Shown here piece after piece: positions 41,524 to 44,770 of a stretch of DNA of 64,000 nucleotides. The stretch is from an uncultured Saprospiraceae bacterium (GTDB taxonomy: Bacteria; Bacteroidota; Bacteroidia; Chitinophagales; Saprospiraceae). The stretch is taken from positions 62,001-126,000 of the forward strand of contig CALSOU010000008.1 of NCBI GenBank assembly GCA_943788055.1, written 5' to 3'. The translations under genes were made by a program, and so were the position numbers. The notes below the pieces were generated by a model. That model was not told the DNA's origin. It did no database searches and was given only the letters and a program-made list of their open reading frames with translations. How positions within the stretch are numbered: the first letter of the stretch is position 1; every line of letters starts with the position of its first letter.

Positions 41524-43965
41524 TTAAAACTTGGCAGTGACGCCCAGTAAAAAGTTAATAGTAGCTTGTGGAAATACTCCAGTCAAATTATACCTTCCAG
41601 TCCCTTCAGTTACTAGCTGAGGGTCACCAGTAACTAAGGATGGCTCGTTGGTTCTAAATCTATACACCCACCCATTCGAAACAAACTTTTGATTCAACAC
41701 ATTATTCACCTGTAAATTGACCGCGAAGTCTCGTAGTTTCCAAAACTTTGTCTTGTAGTTAAGCATCATATCTAGGTAAGAAAAAGCGTCAAGCTTAGCA
41801 AATTCACTTTGTGTATTGTCTAGATACTGCTCACCGACATACTTAAAATTCGCTTGTAAGGCAAAATTGTGCTTAGCGCCTTTGGGCGAAAGCCCCCATC
41901 TCGTAATTACTGTGTGTAGTTGTGACGGAGAATAGGCGATATTTCTATTTGTATGTACTACTTCGTCCTGTGTTCCGGTATCCCAATTGTCAACAGACTC
42001 AGTAAAATTCACAATCTTATTCTGACTGATAGTACCATTATAACCTAACTCAATTCTTGAAGTGGCTTTCGCCAAAAAACTAAGCTCCAAGCCGCGACGG
42101 TATGACTCAGGCACATTTACACGTATGGGCTCACCTACATCGCCGATCTTACCAGTTGGTATCAACTGATCCTCGTATTGCATATTGTAAAAAGTGACAT
42201 CGGCAGTCATTTTCTTAGATAAGTATGAATATCCTAGTTCGAGATCTCGCAATCTTTCAGGCGATGGAGTATTCTCAAAAAATGTATTGATATACTCGTC
42301 TCTGCTAGGCTCTCTGCTTGTTATACCGTAGAACGCAAAGAGCTTATGATTTTCATTTGGTATTATGCTTAATCCAAACTTTGGATTAAAGAATTGTAGA
42401 TTGTCATCAATATCAATTTCAACACGATCATCGTTAAACCCTTGGCCTGTATAATCCACAACACGATACTGTAGGTCTACAAAAGGATAAACCACATTCA
42501 AAATATTAAAATTGAATCTTGAGTAGATATTGGCTTCTCTTTTGACGGCCTCATTAAAGTAATAACGAGTTGCCTTTTCATTCTCTGTGAGGTCCGTTTC
42601 TCTCCATATTACATCTCCGAAATGATCCCCATTATACTGGTTCGCTCCACCTCCAAGCTTAAAACTCATCCATTTCACGTCATATTCGTAGGTTCCAATT
42701 ACCCCGTAGAACAAATTATCAAGCCATCGTTGAATGGCGATATCTCGCTCGACAACACTTGAGTCCAAGTTATAATCCTGCCAAAAAGCATCCTCCCGAA
42801 AATTCTCAAAATAACCTCTTCCCTGTGTGACATGACCCGTCAAATTCAGATTGGACCTCTTACCCAATTTTTTCTGATAAACTAGCTGGCCATGAGTTTG
42901 TCTATAATTATCTACTTCATCCGGATATGGTCCTTCATTTGGGTCGCTCTTTTGACCAGCAGTATTATATGTTCGGATTGAATCCAAATACTGGATCGGC
43001 AAGCCATTCCACGCTTGATATGTACGTTCACCACCAGAAAATACTGTCAACTTCAGCGATGAACCGTCAGTAATTCGACTTGCAGAAAGGTAATAACTAT
43101 TCAATCTAGAACTAGCTCTGTCAATATAACCTTCAGAAGCGATTCGACTATATCGAGCTTCTACAGAATACATATTATTTACTAATCCAGTACCAATGTG
43201 TGCTGATATCTTATTTGTACCAAAAGATCCGATTGCTGTATTTAAATTAGCAAATGAATTCTGTCTAAAATTATTCGTATTCATCTGCAAGGTTGCTCCA
43301 AATGCACTGGTTCCGTTCGTTGAAACTCCTACTCCTCGCTGTAACTGAATTGATTCCACATTTGTCAGAAAATCTGGCATATTGACCCAAAAAACCGATT
43401 GTGATTCCGAATCATTCAAGGGTACACCATTTATAGTAACATTAGTCCTTGAAGCTTCACTACCACGTACTCGTATACCGGTGTAACCTATCCCTGCTCC
43501 TGCATCAGAAGTTACAGTAACCGAAGGCTCCCAACGCAAAATGTATGGAACATCTTGAGCGACATACTTCTCCTCGATTTCTTCTTTATCGAGTTCTGAA
43601 TAGCTCAAGGGATCCCGAAACTCAGCTCTGGTCGCTTGAATTTCAACTTGATCAAGATCAAAAATTGTACCTCGAATTACAACTGGAACTATTAAATCTC
43701 TATCTACAACAATCTGGGTTTCTACTGATTGGTAGCCAATAAAACTAACCTTTAAGACATACTTTCCAGGCTTGACATCTTCAAGAAGGTAGGTTCCGTC
43801 TTGAATTGTAGCAGTGGCATAGTCAGAATCTAGAATAAAGACGGAAGCAAAATCTAAAGGTTCACCTTGCTCATTTACGACAGTTCCATGAATGTCATAT
43901 TGGGCAGATAATCCAATAAAAATAGATAAGAAGAGAAGTGTGAAAATTACTTTTTGAAAATTCAT
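41524..43965 (-). CDS. TonB-dependent outer-membrane receptor, predicted thiamine (or precursor) uptake
   Basis: This 813-residue protein has a signal peptide (MNFQKVIFTLLFLSIFIGLSAQ) and a carboxypeptidase-regulatory-like beta domain (residues about 23-105; IHGTVVNEQGEPLDFASVFI, VKPGKYVLKVSFIGYQSVE). A plug domain follows (about 115-235; YILRWEPSVTVTSDAGAG, GIRVRGSEASRTNVTINGVPLND) and then a 22-strand-type barrel ending in GVTAKF. TonB receptors import scarce ligands with energy from TonB-ExbBD. The leader carries a TPP riboswitch whose OFF structure would cover this start codon, so thiamine, its phosphate or a precursor is the likely ligand. THI-element-controlled TonB receptors are known from Bacteroidota. 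The ligand is inferred from regulation, not from the protein itself. Confidence 0.88.
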   Translation of the reverse strand: MNFQKVIFTLLFLSIFIGLSAQYDIHGTVVNEQGEPLDFASVFILDSDYATATIQDGTYLLEDVKPGKYVLKVSFIGYQSVETQIVVDRDLIVPVVIRGTIFDLDQVEIQATRAEFRDPLSYSELDKEEIEEKYVAQDVPYILRWEPSVTVTSDAGAGIGYTGIRVRGSEASRTNVTINGVPLNDSESQSVFWVNMPDFLTNVESIQLQRGVGVSTNGTSAFGATLQMNTNNFRQNSFANLNTAIGSFGTNKISAHIGTGLVNNMYSVEARYSRIASEGYIDRASSRLNSYYLSASRITDGSSLKLTVFSGGERTYQAWNGLPIQYLDSIRTYNTAGQKSDPNEGPYPDEVDNYRQTHGQLVYQKKLGKRSNLNLTGHVTQGRGYFENFREDAFWQDYNLDSSVVERDIAIQRWLDNLFYGVIGTYEYDVKWMSFKLGGGANQYNGDHFGDVIWRETDLTENEKATRYYFNEAVKREANIYSRFNFNILNVVYPFVDLQYRVVDYTGQGFNDDRVEIDIDDNLQFFNPKFGLSIIPNENHKLFAFYGITSREPSRDEYINTFFENTPSPERLRDLELGYSYLSKKMTADVTFYNMQYEDQLIPTGKIGDVGEPIRVNVPESYRRGLELSFLAKATSRIELGYNGTISQNKIVNFTESVDNWDTGTQDEVVHTNRNIAYSPSQLHTVITRWGLSPKGAKHNFALQANFKYVGEQYLDNTQSEFAKLDAFSYLDMMLNYKTKFWKLRDFAVNLQVNNVLNQKFVSNGWVYRFRTNEPSLVTGDPQLVTEGTGRYNLTGVFPQATINFLLGVTAKF

Positions 43966-44002
43966 TCCATTATTTTTTTAAAATATTAAAAATATGGAAA
44001 TG
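43963..44002 (-). promoter_or_regulatory. Riboswitch expression platform: start-codon sequestering hairpin
   Basis: On the minus strand CATTTCCAT (43994-44002) can pair with ATGGAATG (43963-43970), which contains the receptor start codon, with one bulged T; the AU-rich interior extends the stem. The same CATTTCC can instead pair over seven bases with GGAAATG (44030-44036), the 3' strand of aptamer stem P1. The two pairings exclude each other, predicting TPP-dependent translational repression. Confidence 0.65.
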
Positions 44003-44029
44003 ATATAACCAACAATACGTTCGTTACGA

Positions 44030-44098
44030 CATTTCCCTTGGCGGCATAACCCGCCCAGGTTCTGTGGGTATAATCTCAGCCTTTCGGCACCCCAAATG
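44030..44098 (-). promoter_or_regulatory. TPP riboswitch (THI element)
   Basis: The minus strand reads, in order, P1 CATTT, GGGGTGCC, a GAAA loop, GGCTGAGA, TACCC, GAACCTG, GGCGG/CCGCC, TTATGCC, AAGGGA and the closing P1 strand AAATG. CTGAGA, GAACCTG and the TGCC-AGGG region are the hallmark conserved segments of the thiamine pyrophosphate aptamer. The spacing is normal. The element lies 65 bases upstream of the TonB receptor start, and a promoter -7 box TATATTTG lies at 44130-44137. Confidence 0.95.
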
Positions 44099-44129
44099 AT
44101 TACATATCCAAAAGATATTGGATAGGACG

Positions 44130-44137
44130 CAAATATA
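44130..44137 (-). promoter_or_regulatory. -7 promoter element of the riboswitch-receptor transcript
   Basis: TATATTTG on the minus strand matches TAnnTTTG exactly, 31 bases upstream of the aptamer. A small hairpin (ATCCAA/TTGGAT, 44106-44123) lies between. The best TTTG candidate for -33 (44164-44167) is spaced 26 bases away, somewhat long. Confidence 0.55.
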
Positions 44138-44233
44138 GAACTATTTCATTATTTAATAGCTCACAAAAATGATCTTGAAATTTTGTTTTAAATTTTGTTG
44201 GACTTCGAAACATCATACCTCCTGCACTCAATC

Positions 44234-44770
44234 TTATAGGAAAGCACCTACAATATTTATAGCCTCTTGATTTCGTTCTTGCCCTACCCCCTCAACGATG
44301 GAATAAGGACTTCCAGTTTTAATAATATTCTCTAGATATATCTCAAAGAGTTCATCCAGATCGTTTTCACTTTCTCTCAAGTCATCAGACTCCCATCCTA
44401 AGTCAGGGCTGCATAATAAATACAAGTCTACTTCTTGCAAGCCTATCCATTCTTCAACAAACGGTTCACTCAAGCCATATTTCCACTCGTCCCAAATCCT
44501 TATTGTCAGAAGACAAGTATCTGAGATAACTACATTAAAATCTTGATTATTTATCGCAGCTAACTGAGATTGAAATTGACCATAAGCAATCTTTAGCAAG
44601 TCACTACGTTTGTATTGGCCACTATTTTCGGATAAATATTTTCGTGCAAACTCTTCAACAAGAAGTCCATTGTATTCTTTTGCCAAAATTTGTGATAAAG
44701 TCGACTTACCAGTACTTTCAGGGCCAGTGACTACGATATGTTTTTTATTGCTCATCCATAGTTTATTCAT
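44234..44770 (-). CDS. NadR-like P-loop kinase (AAA_28 family ATPase)
   Basis: This 178-residue protein matches the kinase domain of NadR (ribosylnicotinamide kinase). It shows the P-loop VVTGPESTGKST at about residues 13-24, EEFARKYL with its conserved acidic and Arg residues, VISDTCLLTIRIW (Walker B-like), DLYLLCSPDLGWESDDLRE and a C-terminal VEGVGQERNQEAI. The N-terminal NMN adenylyltransferase and HTH parts of full NadR are absent. The stand-alone form occurs in Bacteroidota, often near vitamin transporters. An alternative start is Met6 at 44755. It lies upstream of the TPP aptamer on the same strand, so the riboswitch does not control it directly. The substrate could be nicotinamide riboside, or thiamine given the neighbour; this is open. 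Confidence 0.8.
   Translation of the reverse strand: MNKLWMSNKKHIVVTGPESTGKSTLSQILAKEYNGLLVEEFARKYLSENSGQYKRSDLLKIAYGQFQSQLAAINNQDFNVVISDTCLLTIRIWDEWKYGLSEPFVEEWIGLQEVDLYLLCSPDLGWESDDLRESENDLDELFEIYLENIIKTGSPYSIVEGVGQERNQEAINIVGAFL

Follow-up and report, generated by a model that had tools for sequence, protein, structure and literature searches.

A TPP riboswitch that would hide the start codon of a predicted thiamine receptor gene in an uncultured Saprospiraceae bacterium

In the TPP riboswitch of Escherichia coli thiM, a strand of the aptamer frees the initiation region when TPP is absent, and bound TPP releases the strand that masks it. What is masked in thiM is a Shine-Dalgarno (SD) site. 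Bacteroidetes are described as lacking SD sequences, with initiation tuned by mRNA structure around the start codon (PMC6847099, available sections), and a riboswitch in these organisms should act on the start region itself. More generally, the accessible text of PMC2258182 describes a scheme of sequestor and anti-sequestor strands and gives translation attenuation as the most common mode outside Firmicutes. A counterpart within the phylum is OMthi (BT2390) of Bacteroides thetaiotaomicron, presented in the available part of a 2017 study as a predicted TonB-dependent thiamine receptor behind a TPP riboswitch (PMC5613172). The same part calls the mode of function of TPP riboswitches in Bacteroidetes uncertain, and reports that OMthi and pnuT operon transcripts showed no significant change with thiamine, whereas biosynthetic operon transcripts did fall (PMC5613172). 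The unchanged transcripts fit post-transcriptional control; the fall in the others indicates that transcript levels can respond too.

Here we describe a receptor leader of this kind in a 64,000-nucleotide stretch of an uncultured Saprospiraceae genome (the window, meaning the whole stretch analysed). Compared with the Rfam family RF00059, it shares the aptamer sequence, the structure and a 5'-leader position before a probable thiamine gene; it differs in missing the optional stem, which is absent between CUGAGA and ACCC in the covariance-model alignment, and its expression platform appears specific to the lineage. The switch logic is common to thiM and the window, with the difference that here the start codon itself would be masked, because the phylum is largely without SD sites; by eye, no AGGAGG-like site lies upstream. 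Like OMthi of the same phylum, the window gene is a predicted TonB thiamine receptor behind a TPP riboswitch, but it has neither pnuT nor tnr3 after it. The features are as follows.

44234-44770, minus strand: NadR-like kinase (AAA_28) gene, directly upstream and adjacent, not part of the switch (domain match)
44130-44137, minus strand: TATATTTG, which resembles the Bacteroidota -7 promoter element (sequence; no good -33 partner seen)
44017-44104, minus strand: TPP riboswitch aptamer (THI element, RF00059; Rfam covariance model)
44094-44098, minus strand: P1 5' strand, CATTT (sequence and covariance-model alignment)
44030-44034, minus strand: P1 3' strand of the bound state, AAATG (sequence and covariance-model alignment)
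44030-44036, minus strand: GGAAATG, aptamer 3' strand, predicted partner of CATTTCC when TPP is absent (folding and complement test)
44005-44027, minus strand: hairpin enclosed by the predicted TPP-free helix; the genus relatives L025, L032 and L148 have hairpins of other sequence in this position
43996-44002, minus strand: CATTTCC, putative switching (anti-aptamer) strand (folding and shuffle tests; pattern in 4 of 4 genus genomes)
43994-44003, minus strand: 5' arm of the predicted OFF stem, TCATT, an unpaired T, then CCAT (bound-state fold)
43962-43970, minus strand: 3' arm of the predicted OFF stem, ATGGAATGA, which holds the start codon at 43965-43963 (bound-state fold)
41524-43965, minus strand: TonB-dependent receptor of 813 aa, predicted thiamine receptor (PF00593, PF07715, PF13715)

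A first-pass annotation had claimed a TPP aptamer signature at this site, and the Rfam covariance model agrees: RF00059 matches 44104-44017 (minus strand; model positions 1-105, E 6.9e-8) at 54.4 bits, 0.1 bit over its gathering line of 54.3. The genome (2,995,115 bases, 96.85% complete) yields no other TPP match at E ≤ 1. The family's hallmarks, the conserved CUGAGA and ACCUG cores together with helices P1, P2 and P4/P5, are all present in the alignment and the sequence. Judged by these features, 44104-44017 is a real TPP riboswitch aptamer, and it would be expected to bind TPP. The segments on which the annotation built its switch lie on the minus strand exactly where it had placed them (GGAAATG at 44036-44030, CATTTCC at 44002-43996, ATGGAATG at 43970-43963), and AAATG is used in P1 as it had proposed, pairing at 44034-44030 with CATTT at 44098-44094. 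TPP matches were found in all four genus genomes analysed, three of them over the cut-off; the scores of the relatives are 59.7, 54.3 and 49.8, of which the last falls short of the line. Across the family, 124 of 150 sampled genomes have a match at E 0.01, and 49 exceed the cut-off.

The assignment of the downstream gene to thiamine uptake, also made in that annotation, is supported by gene context. TonB barrel and plug domains were found in its product, and a pattern scan of the 80 receptor relatives listed out of 585, mostly Bacteroidota by title, detected an ATG start preceded by a TPP aptamer signature in 76. The four misses comprise one locus with only 73 nt upstream (L035), two with an aptamer and no ATG start (L106 and L109), and one whose aptamer was detected by another search (L054). 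The closest named relative among the matches listed, from an uncultured Saprospiraceae bacterium, is 58% identical. Searches of the 96.85% complete genome returned no match for ThiC, TMP-TENI or TPK_catalytic and a single PnuC-family transporter, on another contig than the receptor; the organism therefore probably depends on thiamine uptake. The PnuC-family gene (G000:C9:104633-105127, L174) adjoins what looks by eye like an NqrA-like ORF, away from the receptor and the TPP match.

The kinase gene upstream is a recurrent neighbor: at 50 of 139 loci, including all four genus members, a homologue occurs no more than 1.5 kb upstream of the aptamer, in one case on the opposite strand. TPK_catalytic matched 0 of 150 family genomes in a search that does match Bacteroides ihuae and six other controls of 14. 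ThiL was detected in 148 of the 150, scoring above the cut-off in 140, and homologues of the kinase were present in 128. From position and absence, we speculate that the NadR-like kinase is a candidate thiamine kinase that would fill this gap by making thiamine monophosphate for ThiL. Elsewhere in the window, 17792-40718 (minus strand) holds four very long ORFs of 1617, 1792, 2132 and 1888 aa that appear by eye to encode repeat-rich secreted proteins, the first three of which presumably end in gliding-type C-terminal segments.

Folding models lead us to consider it probable that the riboswitch represses the outer-membrane thiamine receptor by concealing the start codon of its gene, with control presumably exerted on translation. 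When TPP is absent, pairing of GGAAAUG with CAUUUCC, which lies 27 nt downstream, would close an extended hairpin and dismantle P1; in this ON state, the extended hairpin would hold CAUUUCC off the start codon. When TPP is bound, P1 would be held together and CAUUUCC released to pair with AUGGAAUGA, so that the start codon would be buried (OFF). We infer the fold in the cell, the binding of TPP and regulation at the level of translation.

Constrained folding yields both of the states that had been described for the window. Folded freely at 37 °C, the leader (44124-43905) reaches -56.2 kcal/mol with GGAAAUG:CAUUUCC formed around the hairpin; with the aptamer imposed, its pairs entered by hand from the covariance-model alignment, the fold has -48.4 kcal/mol and the released strand is paired with AUGGAAUGA, burying the start codon, these being nearest-neighbor energies, which take no account of tertiary contacts, folding during transcription or ribosomes. 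Tight binding of the ligand could pay for the gap between the two. The three start-codon bases are predicted to be unpaired at 0.05, 0.07 and 0.02 with the aptamer imposed and at 0.27, 0.57 and 0.48 in the free leader, so the codon is closed, not open, in the fold that keeps P1. Forcing the ON helix gives 0.22, 0.63 and 0.56. The claim that the start codon is freed without TPP thus survives in direction, since the codon is more open than in the bound state, but its predicted release is only partial, to about half open.

The ON limb is the firm half of this model and the OFF limb the softer half. For the ON limb, the window's perfect 7-nt complement to the aptamer 3' strand is matched rarely in 300 dinucleotide shuffles (p 0.003), although on duplex energy alone the pairing reaches p 0.09. 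All four genus members have, at similar spacing, an extended hairpin in which GGGAAAT...ATTTCCC encloses a variable hairpin, and its inner stems have diverged. The whole extended hairpin has z scores of -4.39 in the window, -4.16 in L025, -3.50 in L032 and -3.39 in L148; the inner hairpin alone gives p 0.036, 0.012, 0.271 and 0.021, respectively. By longest perfect complement, three of the four members reach p 0.003, 0.007 and 0.013, and L025 reaches 0.16. A pattern scan of 398 family genomes recovered the ON element in 4 of 4 genus genomes versus 4 of 394 others, these four being three aptamer leaders (two identical) and one site that is not an aptamer leader; a backward control pattern matched 1 of the 398.

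Support for the OFF limb is strongest in the window. Opening the start region at 30 °C costs 7.2 kcal/mol in the free state and 12.2 in the bound state, a gain of +4.9 in a test that represents the bound state by the leader folded without its aptamer. None of 400 dinucleotide shuffles matched this gain at 30 °C, and sets of 200 shuffles at 20 °C and at 37 °C likewise contained no match. The occurrence of a segment able to pair both with an aptamer strand and with the start region is likewise unusual in the window (p 0.0075 with 400 shuffles; 0.049 in a 40-shuffle rerun), while the OFF stem alone is unexceptional for a leader so AT-rich (p 0.15 to 0.50 by three measures). Across the genus, the masking gain gives p 0.0025 in the window, 0.025 in L148, 0.08 in L025 and 0.95 in L032, where masking moves the opposite way (-2.9 kcal/mol). 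The joint ON and OFF test gives 0.0075 in the window, 0.17 in L148, 0.98 in L032 and 0.0075 in L025, the last value depending on adjacent bases and not on shared ones. The OFF stem is therefore less well conserved within the genus than its counterpart: L148 agrees, L025 leans the same way and L032 disagrees. In L025, a start-codon hairpin, CAUAUUAUAA:UUGUAAUAUG, adjoins the anti-aptamer strand and forms in either predicted fold, and the mutual exclusivity of the two stems is accordingly clearest in the window.

This uneven conservation bears on a different account of the locus, in which the ON hairpin and P1 do alternate and repression is exerted by another platform, through an independent start hairpin, Rho access or RNase access. 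The retention of the ON hairpin in all four genus members when the OFF stem is not kept (L032) would fit that account, as would the L025 start-codon hairpin that persists in both folds. We regard it as unlikely, given that in the window the two stems share the same seven bases at the joint p value above and that the masking gain lies beyond all 400 shuffles. Far less plausible still is the idea that the aptamer is real and the pairings downstream of it are chance products of an AT-rich leader. A T-rich leader does pair readily with the start region, and both the ordinary OFF stem and the duplex-energy value for the ON pairing leave room for this; against it stand the shuffle tests of the joint segment, the ON hairpin and masking, together with an ON element found throughout the genus at similar spacing.

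Transcription attenuation can be weighed in the same way. Here the hairpin GGGAAATG...CATTTCC followed by ATATTTTTAATATTTT would terminate or pause transcription when TPP is absent, a notion encouraged by the stability of the hairpin in the window (-15.7 kcal/mol), the T-rich stretch after it and a T-run a few bases past the element in L148. Such an arrangement would turn uptake on with TPP, opposite to the expected logic, and no T-run follows the element in L025 or L032; moreover, of the 57 TPP riboswitches covered in the available text of PMC12121620, 6 showed transcriptional activity, and Bacteroides contributed none of these. We therefore hold attenuation to be very improbable, and prefer masking of the start codon by the released CAUUUCC strand. 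A transcription terminator was rejected as a candidate feature: a scan of 43800-44300 found no terminator-like site (mean 0.3 in shuffles), and the T-runs after the element are not conserved. As to promoters, -7-like elements are visible by eye upstream in the relatives (TACTTTTG in L025 and L148, TAATTTTG in L032), and a sigma-70-type promoter scan found no promoter.

Several short ORFs lie in these leaders. In the window, a two-codon, out-of-frame ORF, ATG GAA TGA, overlaps the receptor start codon (43970-43962, minus strand), and ORFs of 18 codons in L032 and 12 in L148 end at or near the receptor start. In the four genus members, the first ATG falls 18-25 nt past the ON element. Across the wider set of leaders, short ORFs that stop at the receptor start show no enrichment (23 of 147, against an expected 24.6), and no support was obtained for pairing between the element and those ATGs; a leader ORF coupled to the receptor was set aside.

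That wider set was assembled from 172 loci, with 30 plus 60 of the 124 TPP-matching family genomes contributing. Dropping 18 loci without a receptor, aptamer or ATG and removing 4 duplicates gave 150, and taking out L145 (aptamer end unresolved) and two leaders shorter than 30 nt gave 147; seven aptamer ends that had been moved automatically were reset by hand. By duplex energy at p 0.05, the 5' aptamer strand is targeted in 24 of the 147 leaders and the 3' strand in 7, with about 7 expected by chance. By longest perfect complement at the same threshold, the counts are 14 for the 5' strand and 4 for the 3' strand, and three of those four are the genus leaders named above. The 3' strand thus stands at chance level across the 147, which makes the 3'-strand element a feature of the genus and not of the family.

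Many of the other receptor TPP leaders (L032-L111, L112-L171) do have a pyrimidine-rich strand before the start codon that is complementary to the aptamer. In the wider set, the partner with which this strand covaries is the 5' strand of the aptamer (P1 plus GGGGTG); in the window's genus, its complement is the 3' strand, GGGAAATG. In a search of the 75 nt preceding the start codon, a GGGG-pairing core turned up in 139 of 147 leaders, and the bases flanking the best core covary with the variable P1 strand across those 139 (z 5.2 by permutation). The signal is present in subsets (65 family leaders, z 3.6, reached by 1 of 500 permutations; 74 named loci, z 4.0) and after thinning to 105 non-redundant leaders (z 4.75) and to 75 with distinct P1 flanks (z 4.01), with 0 of 2000 permutations reaching either value; the loci share ancestry, and these permutation values are not exact probabilities. 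Clear cases by eye are L048, L073, L077, L097, L138, L141 and L169. A C-rich segment complementary to the GGGGTG strand often occurs about 20-50 nt before the receptor start in these leaders (L032-L111, L112-L171), and at several loci (e.g., L161, L139, L087 and L094) it sits by eye in a hairpin loop.

Masking was also tested in the wider set. A joint ON and OFF score reached p 0.05 in 17 of 147 leaders, with about 7 expected (40 shuffles each). Among 131 leaders, a set from which leaders longer than 180 nt, shorter than 30 nt or with long aptamers were excluded, masking on binding exceeded all 12 of the leader's own shuffles in 27, against 10.1 expected, and the mean rank was 0.438, where chance is 0.5. 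The bound-minus-free difference taken without shuffles has a median of zero over 147 leaders. The median and the mean rank together indicate that the masking effect is confined to a minority of leaders in this set. The general switching logic is thus probably wider than the genus, extending to part of the leaders, and the strand used in the window's genus is not.

It is possible, though somewhat less likely than not, that receptor TPP leaders of Bacteroidota share an SD-independent platform in which most pair the 5' strand, the window's genus having been rewired to the 3' strand. On such a platform, a pyrimidine-rich strand would perhaps pair with one strand of the aptamer's P1/P2 when TPP is absent and, once released, occlude the start codon. 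The 3'-strand pairing of the genus, which encloses a hairpin, might then be a case of a platform rewired beneath a conserved aptamer and a conserved target.

The aptamer class, the kind of target and the general logic, as in thiM, are already known. What appears to be new are two predictions drawn from the models: an expression platform specific to this lineage, and direct masking of the start codon in this phylum. The genus-specific switch was not found in the open-licence literature searched, and the accessible portion of PMC3766115 holds nothing on such a mechanism. The locus addresses the question of how a riboswitch blocks translation where mRNAs are without SD sites, and offers a compact model with named bases to mutate. 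Alongside it stands a comparative set of leaders that together carry a covarying anti-aptamer strand, among which one genus may have swapped the strand that is targeted.
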